64,000 bases of DNA from Physcomitrium patens (Eukaryota; Streptophyta; Bryopsida; Funariales; Funariaceae). Below the pieces are notes generated by a model, which saw only the letters and a program-made list of their open reading frames with translations, did no database searches and was not told the DNA's origin. The stretch's first letter is position 1; each line of letters begins with the position of its first letter. Positions 5,226 through 61,588 of this stretch are shown in pieces. The stretch spans positions 62,001 to 126,000 of the forward strand of contig NC_037271.1 of NCBI RefSeq assembly GCF_000002425.4. The letters run 5' to 3'. Made by a program: the position numbers and the translations under genes.

Positions 5226-5550
5226 TGTTAGAGACATAGTCCTTAGAACCTTATAGAAACAAGTTTCTAAAACCTTCTAGAAGTAAGTGTCTCGAACCTT
5301 CTAGAAGCTTCATAGTTTGATGGAAGTTGCTAGAGAAGCTTCTTAGTTGATAGAAGTTACTTAAGAAGCTTCTTAGTTAGTAGAAATTGCTTGAGAAGCT
5401 TCCTAAATAGGAGTATATATTAGAATCGAGGCTGAAGAGTTCTTTAGTCTCGACAACACATCTCTTGGAGCTCTACCTCACCTCTCTGGTGTTGTTCTTA
5501 TACTCATTTGATTAATCTAGTTCTTGCCAGTTCTTCTTGAATTTCTTGAT
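5226..5550 (+). mobile_element. solo LTR of the heat-shock-element chromovirus family (left part)
   Basis: Starts TGTTAGAGACATAG, the plus-strand counterpart of the LTR end seen in elements B, D and F. It carries the family's GAAGCTTC/TTCTAGAA repeats, the TATA box at 5414-5420 and the following ATCGAGGCTGAAGAGTTC block. It breaks off around 5550, where gypsy element A begins; the last 24 bases continue at 14287-14310. The flanking pentamers GGAGC (5221-5225) and AGAGC (14311-14315) are a plausible target duplication with one change. No internal region of this family is attached, so it is a solo LTR formed before A inserted. Confidence 0.8.
5294..5420 (+). promoter_or_regulatory. heat-shock-element cluster and TATA box in the solo LTR
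   Basis: Positions 5294-5311 read GAA-nn-TTC-nn-GAA-nn-TTC without mismatch, a four-unit heat-shock element. Further GAAGCTTC two-unit sites follow before a TATATAT box at 5414-5420. Order and spacing (activator sites, then TATA about 100 bp downstream on the transcribed strand) match the U3 promoter of the family. Confidence 0.7.
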
Positions 5551-5565
5551 AGGGTACACCACTTA
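5551..5565 (-). other. primer-binding-site-like remnant outside the 3' LTR of element A
   Basis: GGGTACACCACTTA lies directly outside the left LTR of A. It matches 13 of 14 bases of GGGTTCACCACTTA, the sequence just inside the right (5') LTR at 12936-12949, which is the spacer plus primer-binding site. Such sequence should be absent beyond the U5 end of a 3' LTR. Confidence 0.6.
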
Positions 5566-7029: not shown

Positions 7030-8778
7030 TCAGAATATATCTCCTACGTCTTTGTCTAGTTCGTCTTCGTCACCTTCATTATTCATATCACTTTCATCTT
7101 CTTGCTGCGGAATCTCTATACCTTCATTAAGGTCTTCAATATTCATCTCTGCGTGTCTTCGTTTAAATATTTTTACTCGCTTCCCTGCAATTGGTATTTT
7201 CAATTTTGTACCATCTAACTCCCGTAATGAGTAAGTCGCATTATCATGAACAGTTGTTACAACATATGGTCCAAACCAACGTTTTGAAAATTTCCGCAAA
7301 GTACTATGTTGATTATCCAGACTATTGTCATAAACAAGTACCCAGTCACCTTCCTCGATTGCTTTTGGTCTCAATCAATGTTGCTTATCGAATCATGCCT
7401 TGTTTTGTAACCTTGCTCTATTTAACCTTTCCAATGCTATCTGGACATCTTCCGTTCTTTGTTCCAATTGTCGAATCCTAATAGCCAGAAGTTCTTATCT
7501 TGTCAATCTAACTTCCCATGGTAGCATACTCCAAGTAAGTACCTTTTCTTCAATCGGCATAATTGGTTTTTGAACTGTCATAAGTTCTACTGGCATATAT
7601 CCTGTCACCGAACTATATGTTGTTCGATCAGCCCATAATGCAAATGACAAAAGCCGTGGCCACTCTTTAACCTTCCCATTACAAGCTTTAATCAATGCTT
7701 TCACAATCGGTGGGTGACCGCGTTCGCTTTTCGCATTCCCTTCCGGATTATAAGCAATAGTCAGCGATAGTTTAACTCCACATCTTTCAAAGAACTTACG
7801 AGCTTCTTGTGCATTTAATTCTCCACGATCTGCAGTGATTTTTTCTACGCACCCGTAACGGCAAATGACATCTTCAAGCAAAAACCTACAAATCCCCTCT
7901 GTAGATTTTGTCCTCAATGCTCTTCCTTCTACTTGATTTGATAAATCTTCATGAGCTAAAACCAAATATCTCATCTGCCATAATCCAACCGGCATAATAA
8001 CCAAATCAACAACCCATTTAAAATGAATAGCCAGAGGATACGTAGGATGAAGACCATCTCGATGTTGGATATTAGAATACGATTGACAGATTTCACATGA
8101 CTCTACAAATGAGAGCACATCTCGATACATATTTTTCCACCAATATCGTTCCTTGAGTTTAGCAAAAGTAGCCCAGATTCCTCTATGCCCTGCCCATAAA
8201 CTATCATGAAACTCCTTTAATAATTTTAGTTTTTCTTTCCTTTTGCCTATCACTCGTTGTGGCATCCCAATTCCTTTCTTCGGTCTCTTCCATAAGAATC
8301 CATCTCGAAGTAAAAATCCATATGTTTTTTTTCTTATTTGTTTGAATTTTTCTGTAGACCAATTCCCCTGCTTAGACAAGGTATTCAAATAATGACCAAT
8401 ATCCAATAATTCTCCTTCATAAGATTCTTCAAGAAATAGCTTGTCTTCTCTGTTGAGATTTGATATTGAATAGAATTTCAATCCGACATCATCAATGTCT
8501 TCAACCATTTCGTCCTCCCTCTCGTATCTTGCTCGAGATAGCATGTCTGCTACGAAATTGTCCTTTCCAGTGATATGCTTAAATTCTGGATTTAGTGACT
8601 TAATATAAGCAATCCATCTCAACATTGCAATATTTGGCGTTGAACAGTTAATAATCATTCCAAGCAATGGCAAGCAATCTGTTTCAATTACTACTACTGC
8701 CCCAATCAAATAGTCCTTTTCAGCTTTCATAGCCGAAACGACTCTCCAAAGTTCTCTTTTGACTTGCGAATATGCACG
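7030..8778 (-). pseudogene. integrase region of element A
   Basis: Continues the reverse transcriptase frame after a nonsense codon at 8779-8781. RNase H residues (VVVIETDCLPLLGM) come first, then the integrase zinc-binding part (HDSLWAGHRG ... CEIC, an H-H-C-C arrangement). The core follows with its first Asp (WVVDLVIMP), second Asp (TADRGE) and Glu (NPEGNAKSERG), and then a C-terminal part ending in an acidic tail at 7030. Two further in-frame stops, near 7495 and 7375, interrupt it; the latter is TGA and fits a former CGA. No chromodomain follows. The normal role would be insertion of the cDNA into host DNA. With the stops this copy cannot make the full protein unless they are read through. 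Confidence 0.88.
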
Positions 8779-10495
8779 CTAACGAATACTTAAAACTTTA
8801 GCCCCAAATCGAACTGCAAATCTACTCCCATTCGAATCATCTTGACCCACCGCCCATCCAACGGCAATTGGACTAGCGTCTACAGTAAGAATCACTGGTC
8901 TATTGCACTTATAATCAACCTTCCTCAATATTGGAGGTGACATCAATAATTTCTTCAATCTTTGCATTGCCTGAATATGCCTTTCTTTCCATTCAAATCG
9001 GTAACCCTTGCGTAACAGTTCATATAATGGATCTGCTATGTGAGCAAAATGAGGGATCCAGATTCGATAAAATACACATGCACCCAAAAACCTGCGAACC
9101 TCTGTTAAAGAACCACAATCCTCTTTCATCCTTCCAATTGCATCAACTTTAGTCGGATCTGGTTTTCTTCCGTAAGATCCGCATAAATGTCCAACAATTA
9201 CAACCTCTCGCACTCCAAATACGGACTTCATACCCGATAATGTAAGATGAACTTCTCCAAGCCGAGTTAAAATCTTTTCACAATCTTGTATATGATCAAC
9301 AACATATCTGCGACACCCCCTCGTATCTAAAGTTTCATCCTTGTCTCCTTCTCTGCACCCCTTTATAGGAACATCATCCAGAAAAGGCATAGTCTTTTCC
9401 AGGATAAAATCTCTCAATACCTTATTCATCCCATTCATCATATGCGCAACTGAGTTGGTCGCACCTTGAGGAAGAGTGCACATTCTAACCAATCCAAGCG
9501 GTGTCCTCATCGTTGTCATATCTCTACTTCCTTCGGCAAGTTGAAATTGATCATAACCTGAATACAAATCACCCATTGAATAGATCGCCCTTCCAGCAAA
9601 CGCCTCAGCAAATTCATCCACAATAGGTCCAATTCCTGCATTCCTAACAGTTACAGCATTCACCGGCTGCATATCTTGAATAAACCGCAGTGACCCATTC
9701 TTCTTAGGTACCGTAAACCATCGACTAGAATACGGCGCAAATGAAGGTTCTAATATTTTCATCTTTATCTTTTCTTTCAATAGTTCCACCAATTTAGTTA
9801 AATGTGCCCTCGGTACTGGAATCGGTCTTAGATTCCAAGGTACATGCGGTACAGTGAAGATAACCATAGATGTTATAATATTTGGATCCACACACCCAAT
9901 TTCATGAGATTCAAAGGCAAACGATCTACCTTGTTTAGCCAACATCTTTTCGAAGCAAGTAATTTCCTTCGGCAATAAAGAACCATCAGAACCAATCTTC
10001 AATTCTTCAAAAGTCTCTTTAGTAAATTGATGTCCAATACTCATTGGATCTCTTAAACTTGGTTCTTTTGATGCTTCTCCCATTTTTTCTTTAGAATCCT
10101 TTGGTAATGGTCCGGCAACAGGCTTTATCTTCTTATCTGCCGTTTTATATCTTGTCTCTACTATGACTTCTGGTGCTTGAAAAGATTCAAGCATGGTATA
10201 AACTTCTCTCGAATGAATCTCAACAATCTTATCATTATCCCCTAACCCAATAGATGTAATCAATTCCAATGAATCTTCCAGCCCATTTTCTTCATAAACA
10301 CCCAAAATCCTCTCATCATCTTACAATGTACCTATCTTGCGTAACTGTCCTTCAATATCATATAATCTTTTTCTTTCTTTCCTTTTAAAATCATCAACTT
10401 TCTTATACATAATATTTCCATTCTCCAATATACCAATAAAACTCGCATCAAAGGCACCTTCATCTCGCGAGAGTACCTCCTCTTTTGTACCTCCA
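8779..10495 (-). pseudogene. reverse transcriptase/RNase H region of element A
   Basis: The main open part is 8779-10305 (508 codons), and the same frame can be followed upstream to about 10495 across a stop at 10321-10323. It shows GDLYSGYDQFQLAEGSRD, LPQGATNSVAHMMN, and the catalytic box written FLDDVPIKG instead of the usual YLDDIL of plant gypsy elements. The connection domain (GRKPDPTKVDAI ... FLGACVFYR) and the RNase H start (VILTVDASP) follow. It ends at a TAG where element C has a glutamine codon, so the stop is probably a C-to-T change. The frame lies in -1 relative to the upstream gag-protease frame. The FLDD variant marks a lineage distinct from the chromoviruses in this window. 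Confidence 0.9.
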
Positions 10496-10505
10496 TAATC
10501 TTGCT

Positions 10506-12803
10506 TTACAGTGGTACATCCCCAAAATCCTTAAATCCTTCAACAATCTTTGGCAATGGTTTCTCCCTCAACCTATCTCGATTCCGTTCATGGTTAGGAG
10601 GTACTGTTAGAAATTGTACAGCTTTCCTCCCATCTTCGCTCCGTACCCTTGCATAAGCAGAACCATCGTCAAGTACCTTTGTTTCCATCCATGTTGTCGT
10701 GATATAAGGATGTCCTAAAATCAACGGATGAGACGTTGTATCTTGAATGAAGAAATGTTGCTCCATCGCAACATCCCCAATCCGAATTTTGACATCTAGA
10801 CAAGCTCCATATAATTCACCTCGTGTATTATTAGCTGCTCGTATTGCCCATCCATGTTCCATATCAATTGGCCATTTTTGCTTCTTATAAAGATCTTTAG
10901 ACATGAGAATTATTTCAGAACCATGGTCCACCAAAGCAACTATTGGTTCCTCTATATCTCCTACCTTCACCAATACCTCAGTAGTTGCCCTTGCCCAATG
11001 CTTTCGAGTATAATGGCTCAATGTTTCCATTCCCTTATCACTAGAATCTTCGAAACGTACTCGCTGATTATAGCCATTCTTTTCATTTGTTGGTTGCTTG
11101 TAACCAATATCAACCTCTTCTTCATCTCTACATATTCTTGCGTCAATAGCATGACTCATTCCAGTTTCGCTCATTAATTGCCTCTTTTGCTTAATGCTGT
11201 CATTGATAACATCATGAAACTCCTTCTTTGCTATTCCCAAGACTTCTTTCAATGTGAATTCCACCTTAGCGTTTAATATACGTTCTTCCAACACCCCTTT
11301 TAAATTTGTTGCCGCTTCAATATCAGAAAGTAGCTTATAAGCAATTGATTTGCTCTTATCTTTTGTCTCCGTTGTTTTTTCTCCCAATGATGCTGAGGTA
11401 TCCTTTACATGCAATTCTTGTGAAGCTCCCTCTCGAGCCTTGTCTCCTCGAGTTTGCCTCTTAAAAGAATTTCCTTCTCTAGTATCATCAAAATTTCCTG
11501 GTCTTTTTTCTTCCATCAAAGCTTCATGTTGGCTCTTAGCAATATATGCATGAACTGAAAGAGACTCAACAGGATCCTCCCAACCTGTTCTTCCTCGTAT
11601 TGTAGTTGCAGTTCTCAATAATGCTTCTCGAGGTAATTTCCCTTCTTGCATTGTAGAAACGGCAGAAGCCCAAAACTCACTAGTTTCCGTACTTCCATCA
11701 ATTTCATCATCTACTCTAGCACCATAACTTGCACTTTCTCGTACTACTGTTTCATGCTCTTTTAAGTAATCTTGAACCAATGCTCTCATTCCTCCCTTGC
11801 CAAAATTGGTTTGAAGAAGATCCTCCCTATCTTTCAATGCTATCTTCCCATCTTTCCAGCAAATAATTCCCTGCCGTATCATATTATTAAATTCATTGCA
11901 ATCTTTTCTAGTGTGTGAAGCATCATCACACCAAATGCATCTTTGTACATATCCTTGTTTTGAAACATTCTTCGAATTGTTTATAGAAGTATTCTCTTCA
12001 AGTCTTGCCAATTTGATTTGAAGATCTCGCATTCCTCATATAATTTCTTCCATACCCATATCTGCTTTCTTTGACAAGGATGTCGAAGGTTGAACTGTAG
12101 GCATTGTCGGTGGTGTAGTACGTACTGGAGCTTTGGGTGCTTGTACTGTTTTCGGAATATTGCTCCTATCCTTCCTCCTTTCTTTTTTTGTAAGCAACCC
12201 CATCGCATCTTCAACGTTCTTCCACTTCGTTGTCAATCCTTCATCTTCTTCTTTGTCTTCAAGAAGGGATTCTAATTTCTCTTGTAATTCTCCATCAGCA
12301 GCTTGAAGAAATAGATCAACTTTGTTCGGCTCCAATGTCAATTTTTCTACCTTCGATAATTGAGAGTACTGCCTCTCAAATTCCCTTAGTAGCTCTGTTG
12401 CTTGCAAATTCTTATTGGGCCGTTCAATCCATCCCAGAAACAGCTTCTTAGTAACGCGATCACCATCTTCCAAGAAATATTTGTCTTTCAATGCATGTGA
12501 AAAATCCTCCCATGAATTCCCACAACGATCCGTAATTGATGTAATGTGGTCCCTTATCTCTGGTATCGTGGCAAGTCCAAATAGTGCAACCATTTTCTTC
12601 TCAGAAACCCGATTTAATTCTATTTCACGAACATAACATCTTAAATACCTTAGAATATTCCTCCCATCAAATTGATCAATTTTATTGACCACTACTTGCA
12701 ATGCTTTGGTTGCCAAAGCTTCCTTTCGATCATTGCTTTGTTGTTGCTGCATTGACAATGAGAAGGCTTGAAACAAACTAGCAATAGACGGATCCATGTG
12801 CAT
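10506..12803 (-). pseudogene. gag-protease frame of element A
   Basis: One frame, interrupted by a TGA at about 12033-12035 (element C keeps a sense codon there). The first 255 codons are the capsid-like part, starting MHMDPSIASLFQAF with a glutamine-rich stretch. The second part holds a coiled stretch, then a zinc knuckle with perfect C-X2-C-X4-H-X4-C spacing (CIWCDDASHTRKDC), and near the C-terminus a retropepsin-like site (ALVDHGSE). The frame ends at TAA 10506-10508 just after the protease, so in this family the protease is in the gag frame and the polymerase is in another. Function: particle assembly, RNA binding and processing. Confidence 0.85.
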
Positions 12804-12924
12804 ACCTTGTCCTTAAGAAGACTCCCCACCAGCAACTTCTCCCAAAAATCCTTCAAAATTTTTATTTTCGTTTTCCATAAAAATAAAGATAAAATCAACC
12901 CAAATCCAATACCTTCTACCTCAA

Positions 12925-28317: not shown

Positions 28318-31126
28318 ATGGAGGCCATGGCTCCTGATGAGGTAAGTTCATGAAATGTTTGGAGTTCATTATTATGCACAAATTAGATTCAAATGTGGAT
28401 TTTAGATCGGGGTTCTGCTGTGGTTTAAGCTTAGGTTTACAGCAATGTTTTTGCTGAGATATTAAGCAGCATTTACTGTTGGGTCCCCCCTTCTTCAGAT
28501 GGACCAAGATTATCGCCAAAAGAGTGGGCAGGAGGAGCTAGAAGATAAGGTGCAAGACCAGATAAGGGCGAAGGGACAGGAGGTAAGAGACCTGAGAGAG
28601 GAGATAAGAGCGAAGGAAGAGGAGATAAGAGGGCTGAGAGAGGAGATAAGAGCGAAGGAAGAGGAGATAAGAGGGCTGAGAGAGGAGATAAGAGGGGTGG
28701 AAAAGGAGATTGTCATTGCTTCGGGAACAGAGGTGAGAAAGCTGCTTGAAGCGAAGCTGCAGTTCCTACGGCAAGAAATAAGCAGTATCCGGCATGAAAT
28801 AAGTAGCCGCGATCAACAGATAGTCAGCCTCCGGCAAGAAATTTGCAGTGTTCGGTCTGTGCAAGAAGCGCCGGCATCGGCAGGTATGTTAGCTTAGAGA
28901 GAATCTGGATCCATGATCTGTGAGATGAATCTTGTGTGCTCTGGTATGCTTACTTGTTGCTTAGGGTATGCTTACTTATACTTGTGATAACATGCTTTTC
29001 TGGCGAACTGATCAATTGATTTCCTTATCAAAATCGGTATAGGGTTTAGGGCTACTTGCCTTCGTAGATAGAATAAGCAGGCCTGTTAACGCAATGGTTT
29101 GTTATTTGGGAACGACGCGGCTCACTAGTTTGCGGAGCTGCCGCCAAGCTCTGCGGTAAGCATCACTAGTTTGTCTAACGGTCTTATCAGGTTGTATTCG
29201 AGTGAGTGAGAATGCACAATTTGGTTCGATGCCCAGAATGTGCGGACGTATGCATATTTGTTGCTTAACACTCTTGTCTGATGTCTGTAGGCATCTTCTT
29301 GTATGATTCGTGATGGCCATTCATGAGTTAAATTCACTCTATGATGTCTTCATGACCGGTGTAGGGTTTAGTTTAGGGTTTAGCGTTTAATCTGTGCTTT
29401 CGCCTGGCTCCGAGTTTTTTTTTTAATTTTTTTAATTTTTAATGAATTTTTATATGTCTCACTTGTGCTTTCAATCTGTGCGTTATTTTGTGGTTCTCGT
29501 TGTTGCCACTTTAGAGCAATTCTTGTGGTGCGATTGATAGATATTGTAGGCTTCTCTGGATTCTTGATAATTAGGGTTCGTTTAATCCACAGCTGGGAGT
29601 GAAATGTTAGCAGGTCTTTTTCTTGGCTGTATCCCAGGTGCGTCGTGCGCTTAGGATTTTGAAGGATTAATTTTCATTATTGGCTACGGCTACTGTTAAC
29701 CAGACAGTACGGTCGAATGTTGTTTTCTATGAAGCGTCTTCCTAAGAACTTCGTTGCTGTTTCCTTCTTTCAAGTTTTGGGAGGAAATGCTGTACAGAGT
29801 AATTTTTCTGTTTTGCTTTTTCAAGATTGTTTTGCACTTTGGGCTTTGAAACGTTTACTTGGTGATTTGGTCCCAATGTGCCGTTCCATGGGCGCTCTGT
29901 TCCATGGGCGAATTCTGCTGCAGTTTTGGCATGGACGACTGATGCTTACTTGTAGGGATGGTTCGTGGCTGTATTCGGGGGGTTTGAAATCGTGCCAAAT
30001 ATGTAGTCTCCTAACCGGAGTGATTATGACTTGGCACGAGACAACGTTGATGTGATTTGTGTAAAAAGTTTGGCATATTATTTTTGCAGTGCGAGAAGTG
30101 CCATGGCCTAAACCCTAAACCTGTTTTCTTGGTTGTTTGATTGAATTTTGTGACCATCGTGTGTGATCCCCTTCTGTGCTCTTCTGTGCAGGACTGTCTT
30201 TAGGTGTTCCTGAAAAGCTCTTGCAGGAGTTGACAGAATACCTGGCTGAGCAGAAGGCGAAATCCAAGTCGAAGAAATCAGTTCAGTTATCGTCTGTGAG
30301 CCAGTATATTTGGGGTACTCTTGAACGGCAGGTAGGCTTGAAAATGATGTTTAATGAGATTGATCCTAATCCCGAGCACTTGAGTGATCTGCCTGCATTC
30401 GGTTGGGACGATAGGCAGGAGAGGTCACAGGCTGATAGGTACATTCCTCACTTAAACAAGATAGCAAGTGGGCGGAAGTGGATGCTGATAGATGCTGCAA
30501 ATAACTATCCAACCCTTCTATCTGGTTTTCTTGGTGGTTGGAATTTTAAAGGCACCACAGATGTGGCTTTTGTACATCGGATAGTACTCAAGTCTGATCC
30601 ACGCCGTGGGTTGAAGTGTATCTTCGAGCTGAAGAAAGATCTTCGAGGTGGTCGTGACAAGGCTATTATTCAGACTACGATTAGGCTTGTGATGGCTAAT
30701 GTTTTTGCGCAGCAGTTCAGACCTTTTGCTGTTCTTACCGACCTTGATGATTTTTGGTCCTTATACTGGATGGATGCATCAACAATATATTGGTTTACTT
30801 TTGAGTCGAGGGCTAGTGCTGTTGGGTACATTAAGGAACTTCTGCAGGATTCCGACAACGACAAAATGGGAACTTCTGAGGCACTGGCAATTCATGCACG
30901 TCCACGTGGTGAAGATGAAGGTCTGCTATTTGTAAAGAAGCGAAGGATGTATGAGCCTCCAGAGATGGATAACTTGAAGGATTTGGTTGGTTTAATACCT
31001 GATGAAGAAATCCTGAGTGCTCGAGTTCAACTTAGCGTTCAGCAGCTTGAGAAGCTGCTGCACATACCCTTGTTCTCTGGTGTACCAGATGTGGATGTGC
31101 CTTGGCCACATAGCATGTACTGTTAG
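28318..31126 (+). CDS. coiled-coil protein with Crinkler-type PD-(D/E)XK nuclease-like domain
   Basis: Three exons join in frame: 28318-28341, 28499-28883 and 30192-31126 (447 residues). Donors are GAG|GTAAGT and CAG|GTATGT; acceptors are TTCTTCAG and TTCTGTGCAG. Phases agree (0, then 1, giving a Gly codon across the second junction). Residues 20-127 form a charged coiled coil containing an exact duplicated 14-residue unit. Residues about 180-350 carry GTTDVAF (Asp260), FELKK (Glu282, Lys284) and a following Gln297, then VLTDLDDFWSLYWMD (about 318-331). This order, nuclease core then a TDL...W...YW block, matches the restriction-endonuclease-like domain of Crinkler (CRN/CR) proteins as I know them. 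A KKRR cluster at 385-388 could direct nuclear import. The usual Crinkler header domain is absent and replaced by the coiled coil. The frame is free of stops amid decayed DNA, so the gene looks functional. DNA cleavage is inferred only. Confidence 0.82.
28601..28684 (+). repeat. exact 42-bp tandem duplication in exon 2
   Basis: Units 28601-28642 and 28643-28684 are identical, with a partial third from 28685 and a diverged one before 28601. Each encodes 14 residues (EIRAKEEEIRGLRE), exactly two heptads, so gain or loss of a unit keeps the coiled-coil register. Confidence 0.9.
28884..30191 (+). other. intron 2 of the Crinkler-like gene (1308 bp)
   Basis: Bounded by GTATGT and TTCTGTGCAG. T-rich in places, with a TTTAGGG-like string at 29361-29383. 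No nested gene or element is supported inside it. Confidence 0.75.
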
Positions 31127-34741: not shown

Positions 34742-34746
34742 GTGTT

Positions 34747-35007
34747 GTTGAGACTAAAGAACTCTTCAGCCTCGACTCCAATATATATTCCTATTTAGGA
34801 AGCTTTTGCAACAACTTCTACCAACTAGGAAGCTTCTCCAACAACTTCTACCAACTAGAAAGCTTCTCCAACAACTTCTACCAACTAGGAAGGCTCTCAA
34901 ACAACTTCAATCTATTTGGAAGATGCTAGAAGGTTTTGGAAGATTCTAGAGGGTTCTAGGAACCTTCTAGAATGTTTTAGAAGATTTTGATAAGTGTGTC
35001 CTTGAAA
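34747..35007 (-). repeat. left (3') LTR of chromovirus D, major part
   Basis: Same order as the right LTR 59827-60184: CTTCAGCCTCGACTC, TATATAT, repeated AGGAAGCTTCTCC.AACAACTTCTACCAACT units, ending GTCCTTGAAA before a polypurine tract (minus-strand AGAAGAAGGGGTGA). Its first part lies at 32811-32866, split off by family X copy 2. Confidence 0.78.
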
Positions 35008-35499: not shown

Positions 35500-36349
35500 T
35501 TCCAAAGAAGGCTTCATCTTTACGCTTCATTAGTGGCCAGCTTTTTATTTATCAGGATATCCTCGATGAAAATCCTGTATCTTTTGCAGCGCATTTGTTA
35601 TATTTTGTGCTGGTTCTCAAGATTGCTCATTTACATCATAGCTATGGAAATGGATTAAATATTCCAACCTCTTCCATCTTCGTCGCAAATCAAAGACTTA
35701 TTCCATCTAATATTCCATATGGTCCTCAATTTCAACACATGGTGGCTGTATCCGTCCTAGTAAAGTTGATTCACTATAAGTTTCTAGAAGAGAAACATGA
35801 AAGACTGGATGTACCTTCATGGATGTGGATAGTTTCAACAGATAGGCGATCGGATTGATTTACTCTTGAATGCTGAATGGTTTCAATCTCATATAATCTA
35901 GCTTCTTATAAGGTCGAGTGGTCTTGATGTTTCGTCACAAAAGCCAAAACTTATCTCCAATTTGGAAAGTAGAAGAATCTTTCCAAAATTTGTCTGCAAA
36001 AGCTTTGTAGGAGTCTTGAGCTACTTATAACTGAAGCTTCAAGGTGGTCTGAATCTCCACTAGATGCTTACCAAAATCTTTAGCTACTAGATTTTCATCT
36101 TTGGATCTATTCAACAAATCGAATTTTAGATGATATCTATAATTTGCAAAGAAAGGTGTTTAGTGGATTGAGGCATGGACCAAATTGTTGTACGCAAATT
36201 CTGCCAATGATAGATATGTAGTCCAATCGTCTTCTTGATAGTTGATTATACATTGTAGATATTGCTCCAAGACTTGATTGACTTGCTCTGTTTGACTATC
36301 CAATTGAGGATGGAAGGCAGAAGAGAGTTTGATATCTACCTTGAGTATG
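35500..36349 (-). pseudogene. integrase C-terminus and chromodomain remnant of D
   Basis: The readable minus-strand stretch VHPVFHVSLLE (about 35780-35815) aligns with B and F, followed by a ruined chromodomain. 35880-36345 corresponds to the post-core integrase of B with many stops. The sequence breaks at GTATG (36345-36349), where B inserted. Confidence 0.7.
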
Positions 36350-36759
36350 TATCACGGACACAAAATACAGACTTAAAATCTAACAAGAAGTTCAAGAAGA
36401 AGTGGCAGAACTAGATTAAATAGATGAGTACAAGAACAACACCAAAAAGGTGAGCTAGAACTCCAAGAGATGTGTTGTCGAGATTGAAGAACTCTTCAGC
36501 CTCGATCTCTATATATACTTCTACTTAGGAAGCTTCTCGAGCTACTTCTATTAACTAGGAAGCTTCTAGAAAGTTCCAAAGGCTTCTTTTCTAGAAACTT
36601 CTCTTCTAAAAGATTCCAGAGACTTCCTTTCTAGAAGCTTCTAGAAACTTCTCTCTAAAAGGTTCTAGAGGCTTCTCTTCTAGAAGGTTCCAGAGGTTTG
36701 TTTTCTAGAAAGTTCTTGAAACTTCTCTCTAAAAAGTTCTAAGGAATATGTCCCTAATA
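36350..36759 (-). repeat. 3' LTR of chromovirus B (410 bp)
   Basis: Plus-strand ends are TATCACGGACAC (partner LTR TGTCACGG) and TCCCTAATA. Packed with TTCTAGAA and GAAGCTTC words. Collinear with 42058-42453. Confidence 0.93.
36510..36725 (-). promoter_or_regulatory. heat-shock-element array and TATA box, B 3' LTR
   Basis: Perfect alternating units at 2-base spacing: 36559-36576 (GAA.TTC.GAA.TTC), 36589-36601 (three units), 36629-36651 (five units), 36678-36690 (three units plus a near fourth) and 36703-36725 (five units). On the transcribed minus strand these precede a TATATATA box at 36510-36517 by about 40-210 bp. Known heat-shock promoters need three or more such units for HSF trimer binding, so the array is far above background expectation. 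Confidence 0.85.
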
Positions 36760-36777
36760 TCACCCCCTCCTTTAGCT
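36760..36777 (-). other. polypurine tract of chromovirus B
   Basis: The minus strand reads GCTAAAGGAGGGGGTGA immediately before the 3' LTR. F has the same tract with one change (61589-61605). Confidence 0.85.
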
Positions 36778-36806
36778 TCGAGGTCTCTGAGAAGCAATGT
36801 TGTTGA

Positions 36807-37160
36807 TCAGTACCAAAGTAAGAAAATGAAGATTTGTTGCATAATTTCTACTATGAACTCCAACTGTTGTTCACGAGGTAAGTGGTTCATCGACCCTTGA
36901 AGCCAACGGTAGTGGCCCACGCCTTCGACTTCTGACCAAGCATGAACTTTCGTGTCCTCATTGTGAAATTGTCCTGCAAACACGCCTTCTAGCTGACCAT
37001 CGTAAGCAGGCTCGATCTCAAATACGATCACCAGTGATCAGTTACTCGGTATCCTCCGTCGTCGTCATGGTACCTGTAGTTCTTCATCTCGAGGTCACCT
37101 TCATGAGTTACTCGGTTGCAATACTCTGATTTGCATAGTATCTATCTCTTGGCTATCCAT
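36807..37160 (-). pseudogene. accessory third ORF of chromovirus B
   Basis: Starts MDSQ near 37160 and carries a RRRRI run with several stops in the first half. The second half (36807-37031) is open and reads IVFEIEPAYDGQ ... VHAWSEVEGVGHYRWL ... NHLPREQQLEFIV. It aligns residue by residue with the intact F copy, mostly with conservative changes. It ends about 30 bases before the polypurine tract. Confidence 0.65.
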
Positions 37161-37179
37161 ATAAAAGACCAAACTATGA

Positions 37180-38585
37180 TCTATCTTTGAGAAAATAACT
37201 ACATCAACTACGAATTTTGCTGGTGCTTTCCCCTTTTCTTATATTGTTGAGAGAAAAAGCTTCAGAAAGAAGTTATCATCGAATTGATTTAGTTTATCAG
37301 GATGTCGTTGATGAAACTCTTGTACCTTTTGTAGCACATTTGCAAGATTTTCAGCTGGTTCCAACGTTCGCTCATTAATGTCATAGCCGCACCAATGAAC
37401 AAGATATTCTAACTTTCTCTACCTTCGTCGTGAATCCAATACCTTTTCAACCTTGTATTCTCCGTGGTTCTCGATTTCAATACTAGGTGGCAGACATTGC
37501 ACTCTTTCAGGAAAAGTTGACTCTCGATAAGGTTCCAACAGAGAAACATGAAAGACTGGATGTACCTTCATAGAAGCCAATAACTCTAGCCAATATGCCA
37601 CTGGATTAATTTGCTTCTGGATGATAAATGGTCCCAATCTTCGATAGCCCAACTTATCACATAGTCACTTGGTCTTGATATTTCGTCGAAGAAGCCAGGC
37701 TTTGTCTCCAACTTTGAAAGTAGGTGCTTCATTCCGAAATCTATCTGCAGACGTCTTATAGGATTCTTGAGTGGATTGTAATTGAAGCTTTAACATAGTT
37801 TGAAGCTCTGATAGTTGCTTCGCAAATCTTTCAGCTACTGGATTGTTATTTGTTGACGGACTCAATAAATCAAGCTTCGGATGATACCCATAGTTGGAAA
37901 AGAATGGTGTTTGTTGAGTCGACGCATGGAGGGTGTTGTTATATGCAAACTCGGCTAGCGATAGATATGCAGTCCAATCGTCTTATTGATAGTTGATGTT
38001 GCATCGTAAGTACTGCTCCAAGACTTGGTTCATCCGATCCGTTTGGCCATCAGTTTGAGGATGAAAAGCTGAAGAAAGCTTGATATCCACCTTCAATATC
38101 TCAAAGAGAGATCTCCAAAACTTTGACATGAACTGGGTACCTCGATCTGATATGATATCATCTGGTAGTCCATGATATCGATATACATTATCGAGAAAGA
38201 GTCTTGCTGTGACTTCACTGGACGATGTCTTCTTACAAGGAACAAAGTGTGCCATCTTCGTAAGCCGATCTACCATGACAAAGATGCTGTCAAATGAGTT
38301 TGATGATGGCAAGTCCGTGATGAAGTCCATGGGAATTGAAGACCATGGTCGACGTGGAATTGGCAATTGCTGTAGAAGTCCGTAAGGGTGATGCCGAGGA
38401 TTCTTGGATCTTGAACAGATGTCATAAGAGAGGACAAAATCTTTCACATCCTTCCACATTTGGGGCCACCAAAAATCTCGAGAAATAAGCTCCAAGGTCT
38501 TGTTGAATCCAAAATGTCCCGCAGCTGGAAAATCATGGCGAGATTGAAGAACTCGGAGTCGTGCTGATCCTTTTGGAATGTACAA
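37180..38585 (-). pseudogene. integrase and chromodomain of chromovirus B
   Basis: The zinc-binding part begins near 38540 (HDFPAAGHFGFNKT ... CSRSKNPRH). The core shows PMDFITDLP, SDRGTQFMSKFWRSL and HPQTDGQTDRMNQVLEQYLR, i.e. all three acidic residues. Downstream come the GPFIIQKQINPVAYWLEL and KVHPVFHVSLLEPYRES blocks and a chromodomain (YKVEKVLDSRRR ... LEYLVHWCGYDINE). Stops follow NINYQ (near 37983), NIKTK (near 37665) and the DSRRR of the chromodomain. Chromodomains of this class steer integration to marked chromatin. Confidence 0.88.
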
Positions 38586-40790
38586 TCACTCTTCAAAGTA
38601 TAAAAGATCTCCCTCCACCTTGAACTTGTCGTCATTGGTACGTTGCTTGATATCAATGGATACTGAATCTTTAATGGTCATAGCACGTACCTGATTTAGG
38701 AAGTCAGCATCAAATGATAGAATAGTAGCACAAAGTTGAAATCTCTCTGGCTTCAATAACGTTGTACATTGTTGATCAAACGCTACTTCTCTAGCCTTTG
38801 GTGCTAGATACGATCTCCTTGATAAAGCATCGGATAGTCCTTGCTGCCTTGCAGGTCGATAAGTGATAACAAAATCGAATCTAGATAGCGACATATTCCA
38901 TCGAGCTTGACGCCGATTTAAAACTCGAGCTAACATGAAATATTTCAAATTCTTGTGATCCGTATACATGGTTACTGGATGTGCAGCTCCTTCAAGAAAG
39001 TGACGCCATTCTTCGAAAGAATCCACTATAGCAAGAAGTTCCTTATCGTGGATCTCATAATTGATTTCAGCAGCAGAGAACTTCCGAGAATAGAATGCAA
39101 CTGGATGGAGCTTCTTATCTTCACTCATTTGTGAAAGCACAGCTCCTAAAGCAAAATTTGAAGCATCAGTTTCTAAATAGAAGGCCTTTGTAAAGTCTAG
39201 ATGTACCAAAATTGGAGTTGTAGTAAATGCTGTCTTCAAGTCTTGAAACGCCTTTTCCGCCAAAGGTCCCCATTCCAACTTATCCTTGCATGTCAATCGA
39301 GTGAGAGGAGCAGCAACTTGAGAATAATTCTTGATGAAGATTCGATAGAAGTTAGCAAAACTAAGAAAGCATTGTACGTCTCTAACCGTCTTCGGAACCT
39401 CCCAAGACATGATTGCTTCTACTTTCTTGGGGTCCATCTTCAAACCTTCTGTAGTCGCAATGAACCCCAAAAACTCCATCTCCGTCTGGTGAAATAAACA
39501 CTTTTCTAATTTGGCATATAGTCCTCGCTTGCATAGTTTTTGCCAAGACCAAACGAACATGCTTCTCATGCTCTTCCTCATTTTTAGAGAATATTAGAAT
39601 ATCGTCCAAGTAGATGACAACAAAATCATCGAGGTGTTCTCGAAAGATGTCATTCATCATATGTTGGAAAACCGCTGGAGCATTGGTAAGACTAAAAGGC
39701 ATTACATTATACTTGAAATGACCATATCTTATACGGAATGCTGTCTTCCACTCATCTCCTTCCTTGATTCATACGAGATTATAAGCTCTCCTTAGATCAA
39801 TTTTTGTAAAGATCTTCGCACATCCAAGTTGTTCTAAGAGACTAGAAATCAAGGGTAATGGGTAACGATTTTTCTTTGTTACCTTGTTGACGCCTCGATA
39901 GTCCACACACATCCGTAATAATCCATCTTTCTTCTTCACAAATAAGATGGGTGCTCCAGCTGATGATTTTGAATGACGAATGAAGTTCTTGGCTAGATTC
40001 TCGTTAATGTACTTTCGCAACTCTGCCAACTCCATTTGGAATAGATTGTAGATTGGGCCAAAAGGTGGTTGTGCTCCTTCTTGCAAGTCTATGGCACAAT
40101 CATATGGTCGGTGTTCCGGTAGTATGTCAACGTTCTTCTTTTGAAACACGTCTTCAAAATCTTTATATTGCTCCGGTATACTTGCTATTGAGATCTTCTC
40201 CTCGGTAGTTGGAGCCGCATAAATGACAAATGGAGTGCCTTCCTTAGATGATCTTATAAACGCTCTTGCTCCAACGAATAAGGATTTCTTTTTTTTAGGT
40301 TTTTTACTAGGTTTTTTCTTGGGTGGTTTTGTGGGAAAAGTCATCTTCTGCAACCTCCAATCTATCGAAGGATTATGTTTTTCTAACCAAGAAAGACCAA
40401 GAATAATAGGGTTTGATGGATTTCTAATAATATTAAAAATAATATAACTACTATGGTCTTTAAACGTTACTTCTATAGGTTTTGATTCATGGATGATGCT
40501 ACCAGACAATAAAGGTCGCCCATCTATGACCTCAACATGAACAGGTTTTGATTTTTGTACTAAAGGGATCTTATGACGCTTTGCAAATTCTTCGTCTAAA
40601 AAACAAGCAGATGCTTCTGAGTCTAGTAGTGCTAAGGTTCTCAGTTTTTGAGGGCCGATAAACAGAGGGATTGTAAAATAAAGTGCAGGTTGGGCAGAAA
40701 GAAAGGAACCTGATTGTTGTTGGGATATTTCATTGTCCACCCGCACGGTTCCTATTGTGGCTGGGCATCCTTGTTTTCCTGAATAAATAC
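38586..40790 (-). pseudogene. protease, reverse transcriptase and RNase H of chromovirus B
   Basis: The frame opens after a stop at about 40794 and overlaps the gag end in the -1 frame. The protease has [16 protein letters not shown], where the catalytic Gly of D-S/T-G is Glu. The reverse transcriptase N-terminus is at about 39769-40100 ([13 protein letters not shown]). After a stop near 39769 come [16 protein letters not shown] and the intact catalytic YLDDILIFS (about 39600). A frameshift near 39550-39580 leads into [17 protein letters not shown], the connection domain and RNase H ([18 protein letters not shown], ending in YRPARQQGLSDALSRR). Confidence 0.88.
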
Positions 40791-41777
40791 TCCCCTAGTC
40801 TTGACTATGCCTCGATTTTGCTTTTTGGGGCAGTTTTTGACTTAGTGGCCTTCTCCACCGCAATACAAGCATAAATTTTCTTCCATACGTCGCTTTTTTT
40901 CTTCTACAGTAAGAGATTTGACACGTACCGCATCAATTTGCATGTCTTCCACCTCTGAATGCAAATTCACACTACTTGCCGACATAGTTGGAGCATGGCG
41001 AATTGTATGTTGTCTTGAGCGTTGGTCTTGGTGACGTTGGAATAGGCGATTATCACACTTCTCAGCTTGGCTAATGGCTTCATTGAGCGTTCGTGGATCA
41101 GGAAGAGTTAACAGCAAATCCTTCACATCATCTCTTAAACCCCAATAGAATTGACTCATCAACGCTTCTTCATCCCAATTGATGTCGCATACTAATTGCT
41201 TGAAATCCGAAGCATAAACTGATGTAGAACGCATCCCTTGTTGTAGCGACCGGATCTTTGTTGTAGTCCATCGAACCTTATCGTGTTCACCAAATACTTC
41301 CGCAAATGCTTCCAAAAAGGTTTTGAAGTTGTTTAATATGAATGATCGTTTCTCAAACAAAGGAGCAAACCATGATAGAGCTTGTCCCGTAAGTAAGGTT
41401 CCAACAAGCCCAACACGTGACTCCTCCGTTGGATATCGTTTGGGCTGTAAAACTGTTATCAACCTGATTTGATTGACAAATCCTCGAAACTTGGAACGTG
41501 TTCCATCAAACTTATCTGGAAGGCTAACTCGAGGCTCCTTATGTTGTAGAACTAGTGGTTCTTGTCGAACCTGAGGTAAATTTGTTTCTCCAAGTGCACA
41601 AGTTTGAGGCTGGTGTAGTTTAGATTGTGCTATCCCAGATACCTCATCATTATGAAGCCTTGCCACCACTCCTTCAATCTCTGCAGTTCTTTGTGATAAC
41701 GTAGCAAGGGCATTCATAATAGCATCTAATTTAGACTCCGAACTTTCTGTCATACTAATGTCTTGACCTCCGGCCAT
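40752..41777 (-). pseudogene. gag of chromovirus B
   Basis: ATG at 41777; 311 codons open to a TAA at 40842-40844. The N-terminal part (residues 1-60) is a likely coiled coil; the capsid core contains LPDKFDGTRSKFRGFVNQ and VGLVGTLLTGQALSWFAPL. The zinc knuckle CLYCGGEGH is cut by the TAA just after His, with the last Cys (VKNC) beyond it, so a C-to-T nonsense change is likely. The frame then runs on to TAG 40752-40754, overlapping the pol frame by about 36 bases. Confidence 0.85.
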
Positions 41778-41778
41778 T

Positions 41779-42057
41779 CTAAAAGAAGGACAAAAATGAC
41801 TCTATAAGAGGCAATATTGGTTTATAGGAGGGTAATCCACAACCTATAAAATGCCTTAAGAATTTCAAGAAGAGGGATAATCGACTCTCTCCAAGAAGAA
41901 TAAGACTCCAATATTGTAACACAAGAAGTATCAGTTTAGAGTAGGGTAATCCGCAACATCTAAAAAATGCTAGTGTACCTTCAAGTAGAGGGGTAATCCA
42001 CACTCTACTAAGAAAGAACTAGCTCTGATATCTCAAGTTAGTGTAGTCTCGACAAAC
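41779..42057 (-). other. leader of chromovirus B with tandem blocks and offset primer site
   Basis: Two related blocks of about 100 bases (about 41810-41910 and 41930-42015) each contain two GGTAATCC[A/G]C-type words, a CTTCAAG[T/A]AGAGG phrase and a CTCTA/CTCTC end. An initiator-Met-like primer site GCTCTGATAT lies at 42022-42031 on the plus strand, about 24 bases inside the LTR; element D keeps the same offset. The blocks could take part in packaging or dimerisation; that is inference. Confidence 0.6.
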
Positions 42058-42453
42058 TGTCACGGATACAAAATACAGACTTGAAATCTAACAAGAAGTT
42101 CAAGAAGAAGTGGCAGAACTAGATTAAACAGATGAGTACAAGAACAACACCAGAAAGGTGAGCTAGAACTCCAAGAGATGTGTTGTCGAGACTGAAGAAC
42201 TCTTCAGCCTCGATTCCTATATATACTCCTACTTAGGAAGCTTCTCAAGCTACTTCTATTAACTACGAAGCTTCTAAAAAGTTCTAGAGGCTTCCTTTCT
42301 AGAAACTTCTAGAAACTTCTCTTTTAGAAGGTTCCAGAGACTTCCTTTCTAGAAGCTTCTAGAAACTTCTCTCTAAAAGGTTCCAGAGGCTTCTCTTCTA
42401 GAAGGTTCCAGAGGCTTGTTTTCTAGAAAGTTCTAAGGAATATGTCCCTTACA
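42058..42453 (-). repeat. 5' LTR of chromovirus B (396 bp)
   Basis: Starts TGTCACGG, ends TCCCTTACA, followed by the target duplication GTATG. Active promoter LTR by position. Confidence 0.93.
42218..42369 (-). promoter_or_regulatory. heat-shock-element array and TATA box, B 5' LTR
   Basis: Two perfect five-unit heat-shock elements (42297-42319 and 42347-42369, each TTC/GAA alternating five times at two-base spacing) stand about 70-150 bp upstream, on the transcribed minus strand, of TATATATA at 42218-42225. Confidence 0.85.
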
Positions 42454-42458
42454 GTATG

Positions 42459-59826: not shown

Positions 59827-60184
59827 TATTACGGACACAAAACACAAACAAAAAATCTAAGCGAGAAGTTCTAGAACTAACAAGAACTCAATTATATCAA
59901 ATGAGTACAAGAATAACACTAGAAAAGTGAGCTAGAGCTCCAAGAGATGTGTTTTCAAGACTGAAGAATTCTTCAACCTCGACTCTAATATATACTCTTA
60001 TCTAGGAAGCTTCTCAAGTAACTTCTACCAACTAGGAAGCTTCTTTAGTAACTTCTACCAACTAGAAAGGCTCTCAAGCAACTTCTATCTATTTGAAAGA
60101 TGTTAGAAGGTTTTGGAAGGTTGTAGAAGGTTCTAAGAACCTTTTAGAATATTTTAGAAGGTTTTGGCAAGCATGTCCTTGACA
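59827..60184 (-). repeat. right (5') LTR of chromovirus D (358 bp)
   Basis: TATTACGGACACAAAACAC to GTCCTTGACA. Contains TATATA near 59990 and GAAGCTTC two-unit heat-shock sites, but fewer perfect units than B. Confidence 0.85.
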
Positions 60185-61114: not shown

Positions 61115-61588
61115 TGTCACGGACCAAAATTACAAACAAGAAATCTAAACAAAAAGTTCAAGAAGAAATGACAAGAACTAGATTATCAGATGAGTAACAG
61201 AGCAACGCCAAGAGAATTGAGCTAGAGCTTCAAGAGATGCGTTGTCGAGACTGAAGAACTCTTTAGCCTTGACTCTTATATATACTATTGGCCTATGGTT
61301 CTAAGGAAGCGCATCAAGAAGCTTCCCAAGAACTATGAAGCTTCTCGAGCAACTACCCAAGAGCTAGGAAGCTTCTCAAGTAACTTCCTAGAATCTACTA
61401 GAATATTCTAAGAATCTTCTAGAGCCTTCTAAGGAAATCTTTAGGAAATCTTCAAAGAATCTTTAGGGAATCTTTGAAGAATATTCTAAGAGAATATTCA
61501 AAGAATCTTTTGGAAGTTTTTAGAGACTTCTTTCTAGAAGGTTCTAGAAACTTGTCTCTAAAAAGGTCTAAGGACTATGTCCCTAACA
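61115..61588 (-). repeat. 3' LTR of chromovirus F (474 bp)
   Basis: TGTCACGGACC to TCCCTAACA. TATATATA at 61277-61284. A perfect four-unit heat-shock element (TTC.GAA.TTC.GAA) at 61532-61549, plus several AGAATCTTC-type partial sites. Longer than B because of added AGAATCTTT-like repeats. Confidence 0.88.

Follow-up and report, generated by a model that had tools for sequence, protein, structure and literature searches.

Does heat turn on an abundant Ty3/gypsy retrotransposon family of the moss Physcomitrium patens? The question was raised by a stretch of 64,000 nucleotides (assembly GCF_000002425.4, contig NC_037271.1, positions 62,001 to 126,000), called the window throughout, in which element B on the minus strand (36,350 to 42,453) carries arrays of perfect heat-shock elements (HSEs) in both of its long terminal repeats (LTRs). 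Among retrotransposons switched on by heat, copia families of seed plants have been studied best. Judged from sequence, the LTRs of the family to which B belongs are probably promoters of a self-priming chromovirus that are driven by heat-shock factor (HSF), ONSEN-like in their mode of action. The arrangement of the sites suggests that heat turns on this abundant family.

HSE Arrays in the LTRs

An HSE run was defined as a series of GAA and TTC units that alternate without mismatch every five bases. The initial annotation had reported four five-unit runs in B, several runs of three and four units, and a position of all of them upstream of the TATA boxes. The five-unit runs were found letter-exact, the coordinates of the TATA boxes were exact, and the 5' and 3' LTR contained four and five runs of at least three units, respectively, including two five-unit runs each. 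Since B is encoded on the minus strand, coordinates increase in the upstream direction from TATA, in agreement with the initial annotation. The four-unit sites reported for element F and for a solo LTR were equally exact; the latter LTR (5226-5552), however, lacks the end of U5, so that only the site and not the designation could be kept. The features concerned are as follows.

42297..42433, minus strand: HSE array in the 5' LTR of B, runs at 42297-42319 (5 units), 42347-42369 (5), 42396-42408 (3), and 42421-42433 (3)
42218..42225, minus strand: TATA box TATATATA in the 5' LTR of B, letter-exact
36559..36725, minus strand: HSE array in the 3' LTR of B, runs at 36559-36576 (4 units), 36589-36601 (3), 36629-36651 (5), 36678-36690 (3), and 36703-36725 (5)
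36510..36517, minus strand: TATA box TATATATA in the 3' LTR of B, letter-exact
5226..5552, plus strand: family LTR without the U5 end, four-unit HSE at 5294-5311
61115..61588, minus strand: 3' LTR of element F, four-unit HSE at 61532-61549
59827..60184, minus strand: 5' LTR of another copy of the family, without any three-unit run
34742..35006, minus strand: family LTR fragment, three-unit HSE at 34960-34972

All 12 runs of at least three units in the window were located inside LTRs of this one family, and none was found in the remaining 61,761 bases. Dinucleotide shuffles of the window yielded a mean of 1.7 runs, and 0 of 200 reached 12. When each LTR of B was shuffled in the same way, the observed run counts were reached in 0 of 2,000 cases. 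In a third-order Markov control, where the majority of repeat words are preserved, the five-unit count was reached by 3 of 2,000 sequences for the 5' LTR and 2 of 2,000 for the 3' LTR, and the count of runs of at least three units by 45 and 2 of 2,000, respectively. As an additional observation, the family LTR that starts at 5226 breaks off at 5552, before the end of U5 and just where a repeat of a second gypsy family begins, an arrangement that resembles a nested insertion.

Predicted Promoter and Self-Priming Site

42183..42193, minus strand: AGTCTCGACAA, predicted RNA 5' end, complementary to the primer-binding site (from sequence)
42045..42055, minus strand: primer-binding site (PBS) TTGTCGAGACT of a self-priming kind, separated by 2 nt from the inner end of the 5' LTR (from sequence)

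Within the LTR, the first T of TATA is followed 32 nt downstream by the start of AGTCTCGACAA, which shows an 11-nt complementarity to TTGTCGAGACT. A total of 59 LTRs were scanned, 45 of which had the exact word and an upstream TATATA; the 32-nt spacing between TATA and AGTCTCGACAA was found in 44 of these 45. Because the self-priming site fixes the start of transcription, the HSE arrays can be placed in an enhancer position independently of any promoter consensus. The family shows what is expected of an HSF-driven LTR retrotransposon, namely perfect HSEs in U3 upstream of the predicted start site. An imperfect palindrome, CGAGGCTGAAGAGTTCTTCAGTCTCG, was noticed at the start of R (42187-42212), around the predicted transcription start, and is similar in other copies.

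Genome-Wide Spread and Placement of the HSEs

The moss host assembly (470,438,890 bases, 101 contigs) was scanned for the motifs of the family. The four-unit palindromic HSE pattern GAANNTTCNNGAANNTTC was found at 11,443 places, versus 81 for the reversed pattern. With the same words at six-base spacing, 102 places were obtained, the reversed control of that pattern giving 440. With up to three mismatches allowed, the R region of the family was matched 6,126 times, and with one mismatch at most, the LTR-PBS junction was matched 2,048 times; either reversed control gave 0 matches. Placement was checked for the first 100 of the 11,443 HSE places, which cover the first 2.1 Mb of contig C1 and for 99 of which sequence was obtained; all 99 were in sense with a family TATA/R region and preceded it by 42-276 bp (median 126). 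Six arbitrary 10-kb stretches contained two three-unit runs and none longer. Copies picked by their LTR-PBS junction, regardless of HSEs, had a run of at least four units in the 5' LTR in 20 of 20 cases and of at least five units in 3 of 20. Altogether 32 5' LTRs were sampled (11 among these fetched because of their HSEs, plus B), and their U3 regions held 7-31 units in runs each. The observed number of units was reached by 0 of 16,000 shuffles of these LTRs. The promoter placement and the non-random arrays described in the initial annotation were supported, and far more strongly by the genome than by the window.

Two pairs of family LTRs on contig C1 (7801306/7805437 and 7932863/7936994) are 131,557 bases apart, and their identical spacing suggests a larger duplicated block. 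A search with the pol protein detected no relatives in viral contigs, and two viral-contig matches to the R-region pattern were dismissed as chance, the similarity extending over at most 24 bp.

U3 Types and Age of the Family

R-U5 was for the most part very similar among copies, and U3 was found in at least four types, I to IV, which were assigned by eye. Representatives of types I and III could be aligned only over about 40 bp near TATA. Alignments of U3 gave 78% over 245 columns for types I and II, 72% over 213 for III and IV, and 88% over 88 for II and IV. The U3 types therefore form a chain linked by the partial exchange of segments, and did not arise as four separate inventions. The spacers from GAA to TTC were mainly CC, GC, GT, and CT in types I and II, with TA, GG, and GA leading in type III. 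In every type, TTC followed GAA at an offset of five 7-12 times per U3, at an offset of six at most 0.7 times, and at offsets of 3, 4, or 7 at most 0.1 times. The spacer of TTCnnGAA was TA in 150 of 157 cases. The mean number of units in runs per U3 was 22.9 for type I (7 LTRs), 12.6 for type II (9), 12.4 for type III (11), and 9.2 for type IV (5).

Divergence between the two LTRs of an element was determined for 27 elements, all of them unit-rich. For these pair tests, 5 of the 20 junction-picked copies were dropped as having no 3' LTR in the fetched stretch, and L014 (distant R-U5), L017 (LTRs 3 kb apart), and L022 (LTRs of differing type) were left out. Because the values span 0.7-10.9%, the family was active for a long period, including recent times. 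The lowest two divergences belong to type III, the highest mostly to type II, and one type IV pair reached 9.2%. CG dinucleotides occurred at 0.29 of expectation in U3 and at 0.44 in R-U5 (32 5' LTRs: B, L011-L069).

Host Heat-Shock Factors and HSP20 Promoters

The host genome contains 8 HSF DNA-binding exons and 28 HSP20 matches, and for the best 14 of the latter the upstream regions were taken. Perfect three-unit runs failed as a marker of host heat genes: they were present in 1 of 14 regions when the 650 bp preceding the alpha-crystallin domain were considered, and in 2 of 11 stretches further up. Near-perfect three-unit sites (at least 8 of 9 letters) were counted in 11 HSP20 regions, three of four nearly identical copies having been dropped. 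Here, 18 sites were found in 5,500 bp near the gene versus 3 in 7,711 bp farther up; without overlapping sites the numbers were 16 versus 3 (p-value of 2e-4, which is optimistic, as the regions are partly related: L100 and L107 share a site, and so do L106 and L108). At least one near-perfect site was present in 10 of the 11 upstream regions. Since these sites cluster near the HSP20 genes, host heat genes use the same site grammar as the LTRs. The 32 sampled U3 regions contained a mean of 13.3 near-perfect sites and are far denser than the HSP20 regions.

Four HSP20 genes were found within about 510 kb on contig C8 (5249893, 5451057, 5672256, and 5762127). The 671 bases preceding each gene deviate from those of the first copy at only 1-3 positions, and these nearly identical stretches point to a recent duplication of small heat-shock genes on C8.

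Evidence Against Heat Activation and Alternative Explanations

Several observations weigh against an HSF-driven promoter. The initial annotation had anticipated more intact units in younger copies, and no such age trend was found (Spearman 0.24, p-value of 0.24, 27 elements). Selection holding the HSE cores within subfamilies would make changes that predate insertion rarer there than elsewhere, which was not the case. Changes before and after insertion numbered 13 and 43 in the cores, 31 and 189 in other parts of U3 (odds ratio 1.84, p-value of 0.10), 22 and 161 in R-U5 (odds ratio versus core 2.2, p-value of 0.05), and 10 and 24 in the spacers (0.73, p-value of 0.62). If anything, the cores had changed more before insertion, mostly in type I. 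We are aware of the fact that this test had little power, that the tandem arrays of type I align poorly, and that L059 and L061 are maybe one insertion copied by a larger duplication, given their equal neighbour distances. Moreover, with perfect three-unit runs being rare at host HSP20 genes, the LTR arrays exceed the density that real heat genes appear to need. A further point concerns RLG1 of P. patens, which we take to be Tcn1-like. RLG1 is reported to be repressed by heat shock (PMC7466625).

The lack of excess constraint in the cores would fit a neutral minisatellite, in which slippage amplified the palindromic TTCTAGAA plus two bases and the resulting chance match to the HSE was inherited from a master copy. 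Short-period repetition is indeed present in U3, with self-matches at a 75-bp offset in the 3' LTR of B and tandem units of 24 and 30 bp in the LTR at 5226-5552. In addition, the third-order Markov sequences sometimes reached the milder run count of the 5' LTR of B (45 of 2,000), and the U3 types are not fully independent of each other (I-II 78%, III-IV 72%, II-IV 88%). Nevertheless, we regard a minisatellite as an unlikely explanation. Types I and III share about 40 bp and use different spacers, yet GAA and TTC are locked at five bases in both; furthermore, the runs sit in U3 upstream of TATA, and the TA in TTC-TA-GAA supplies an A before each GAA. HSF prefers an A preceding GAA.

Alternatively, HSF might bind to the LTRs with a different outcome, either as part of another programme (drying, abscisic acid (ABA), development) or through repressive class-B factors. 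RLG2, a gypsy element of P. patens, was reported to be induced by heat and ABA, which together with the repression of RLG1 would agree with such a role (PMC7466625). The host HSP20 promoters, however, use the same kind of site, and we judge a non-heat outcome quite improbable. Hardly any weight can be given to the idea that the palindromic array acts at the RNA level, by folding at the transcript's 3' end, instead of serving as a protein-binding enhancer: U3 does lie upstream of R in the 3' LTR and folds better than dinucleotide shuffles (z of -2.6 to -6.2 in five of six representatives, -1.5 in the sixth), but good folding is expected of palindrome arrays, a single unit cannot close on itself with a loop of two bases, and folding would presumably require neither the five-base phase nor the TTC-TA-GAA joint.

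For the HSF-driven promoter, the following mechanism is proposed. U3 would act as an enhancer of many adjoining HSEs, to which class-A HSF trimers of the host may bind on heat. Bound HSF would then drive transcription from the TATA box located 42-276 bp downstream. The RNA would begin about 32 nt after TATA, and its first ~11 nt, by their complementarity to the PBS, would prime its own reverse transcription. As each new copy inherits the array, the family has distributed strong HSEs by the thousand across the genome. Subfamilies rebuilt parts of U3 yet kept dense HSEs, for which selection may be the cause. A broader scenario is put forward tentatively. The family could own practically all strong HSEs of the host (>11,000 four-unit sites, about 6,000 R regions) and so form a genome-wide reservoir that competes for host HSF and is driven by it. 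Heat might mobilise the family and, via thousands of LTRs, spread or buffer the heat response of the moss; HSE density might be the trait behind subfamily replacement.

Structure and Clade of Element B

The minus-strand element B is of the Ty3/gypsy type: gag, protease, reverse transcriptase, RNase H, and integrase were detected by Pfam in gypsy order, and its coding frames are interrupted by stops and frameshifts. After trimming, 367 positions of the two LTRs could be aligned, and 20 of these differ.

42454..42458, no strand: target-site duplication GTATG, 5 bp, one flank of B (from sequence)
42058..42453, minus strand: 5' LTR of B, 396 bp, TGTAAGGG...CCGTGACA (boundaries and matching target-site duplication)
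40845..41801, minus strand: gag open frame (Retrotrans_gag, Ty3_capsid; Pfam)
38589..40794, minus strand: protease, reverse transcriptase, and RNase H, spread over several frames with stops and shifts (open reading frames, Pfam)
37986..38585, minus strand: integrase zinc-binding and core domains (Pfam)
37300..37664, minus strand: integrase SH3-like domain, then chromodomain at the end (about 37300-37460, internal stop codon; Pfam)
36760..36773, minus strand: polypurine tract AAAGGAGGGGGTGA, adjoining the 3' LTR (from sequence)
36350..36759, minus strand: 3' LTR of B, 410 bp (LTR comparison and boundaries)
36345..36349, no strand: target-site duplication GTATG, opposite flank of B (from sequence)

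The order protease, reverse transcriptase, RNase H, integrase with a chromodomain at the integrase end is that of a chromovirus, and the initial assignment of B to a chromodomain gypsy family was supported by this order and by the Pfam matches at the integrase end (Chromo 5.7e-10, SH3_Tf2-1 4.6e-15). Membership in the ONSEN family proper (Ty1/copia) was rejected, as the gene order is gypsy and not copia. Chromodomain-like segments were found in 13 of 14 fetched loci, several with stops; L017 had the last part only and L022 none.

B has the self-priming type of PBS expected of the Tcn1 clade, a feature in which it also resembles the Tf1/sushi group. The group I chromodomain residues (Y24, W45, Y48) are present, with EYEVEKV/I and HWCGY/HWSGY in most copies; the match of these Y/W/Y residues to HP1 was made by eye and is assumed here. 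Among 120 protein matches listed, the top one naming an organism came from a fern, Adiantum (63%), and therefore a non-seed-plant clade other than Tcn1 is possible. Most Tcn1 elements, but no other plant chromovirus clade, were predicted to have a self-priming PBS (PMC6317226). It is no strict marker of Tcn1, since SM-Tcn1 of Selaginella showed no self-priming (PMC2864245), and the group I chromodomain is not exclusive to Tcn1 either, occurring also in Galahad and Chlamyvir elements (PMC3350952). The family likely belongs to the Tcn1 clade, a label that is provisional.

Relation to Known Heat-Responsive Elements

HSFA2 binds the LTR of ONSEN/COPIA78 in vitro, and transcription of this element under heat depends on HSFA1 as well as HSFA2 (PMC3907296; PMC5059998). 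ONSEN and other heat-responsive COPIA elements of Brassicaceae have clustered nGAAn HSF-type sites in the LTR promoter in common with the moss family (PMC3907296; PMC5059998). They are Ty1/copia elements with one cluster of four to six nGAAn and with a low copy number, Col-0 harboring 8 ONSEN (PMC3907296; PMC5059998), whereas the family described here is a Ty3/gypsy chromovirus of a moss with 7-31 units per U3 and thousands of copies, known so far from its sequence. The low CG content of its U3 recalls the shortage of CG and CHG sites in two ONSEN LTRs (PMC3907296).

The initial annotation had called a heat-responsive chromodomain gypsy family a different case from ONSEN. This holds for the superfamily, B being a gypsy chromovirus and not copia, but heat-linked gypsy elements (RLG2, TCN3) had already been published. 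In Cryptococcus, the LTR elements TCN3, which is Ty3/gypsy, and TCN12 move at 37°C and have putative HSEs in their LTRs; they differ from the family by their fungal host and by two and one putative HSEs, respectively, instead of arrays in thousands of copies (PMC12810828). RLG1 and RLG2 are moss gypsy elements like the family; no motif analysis was seen in the report on them, and the word "motif" is absent from its main text (PMC7466625). HSE-bearing Helitrons of Caenorhabditis likewise carry many of a genome's HSEs; they are DNA transposons, while the HSEs of the moss family sit in the element's own promoter (PMC6927752). Heat-induced gypsy transcripts of Cryptomeria are cited in PMC9780303, and in bamboo two gypsy elements under heat were tied to factors other than HSF (PMC8656106). 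Among the titles and beginnings of abstracts listed by searches of the open-licence literature, none was on HSE arrays in a moss or a Tcn1-like element.

If heat activation of the family is true, the same capture of the heat-shock response would have arisen in a second superfamily, in a plant lineage that is distant, and would be compatible with a very high copy number. The U3 types, differing in sequence but not in HSE phase, would provide a clean system for relating HSE grammar to transposon success.

Other Features of the Window

On the plus strand, a gene region (28466-31123) includes a coiled-coil-like frame with a 21-bp tandem repeat (28560-28710) and, in addition, a frame of 319 aa that matched nothing in Pfam. 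For this non-retroviral gene 8 homologous proteins were found, two of them from the moss Ceratodon, and the best named homologue was that of Ceratodon purpureus (77%); another match reached 99%. The second gypsy-like family is represented by two diverged copies at 7498-12812 and about 46-53 kb, i.e., about 40 kb apart, which are 81-88% alike in the listed stretches. HSE runs were present in neither copy, one copy has a DUF4100 match, and direct repeats about 7 kb apart are located at the copy ends.

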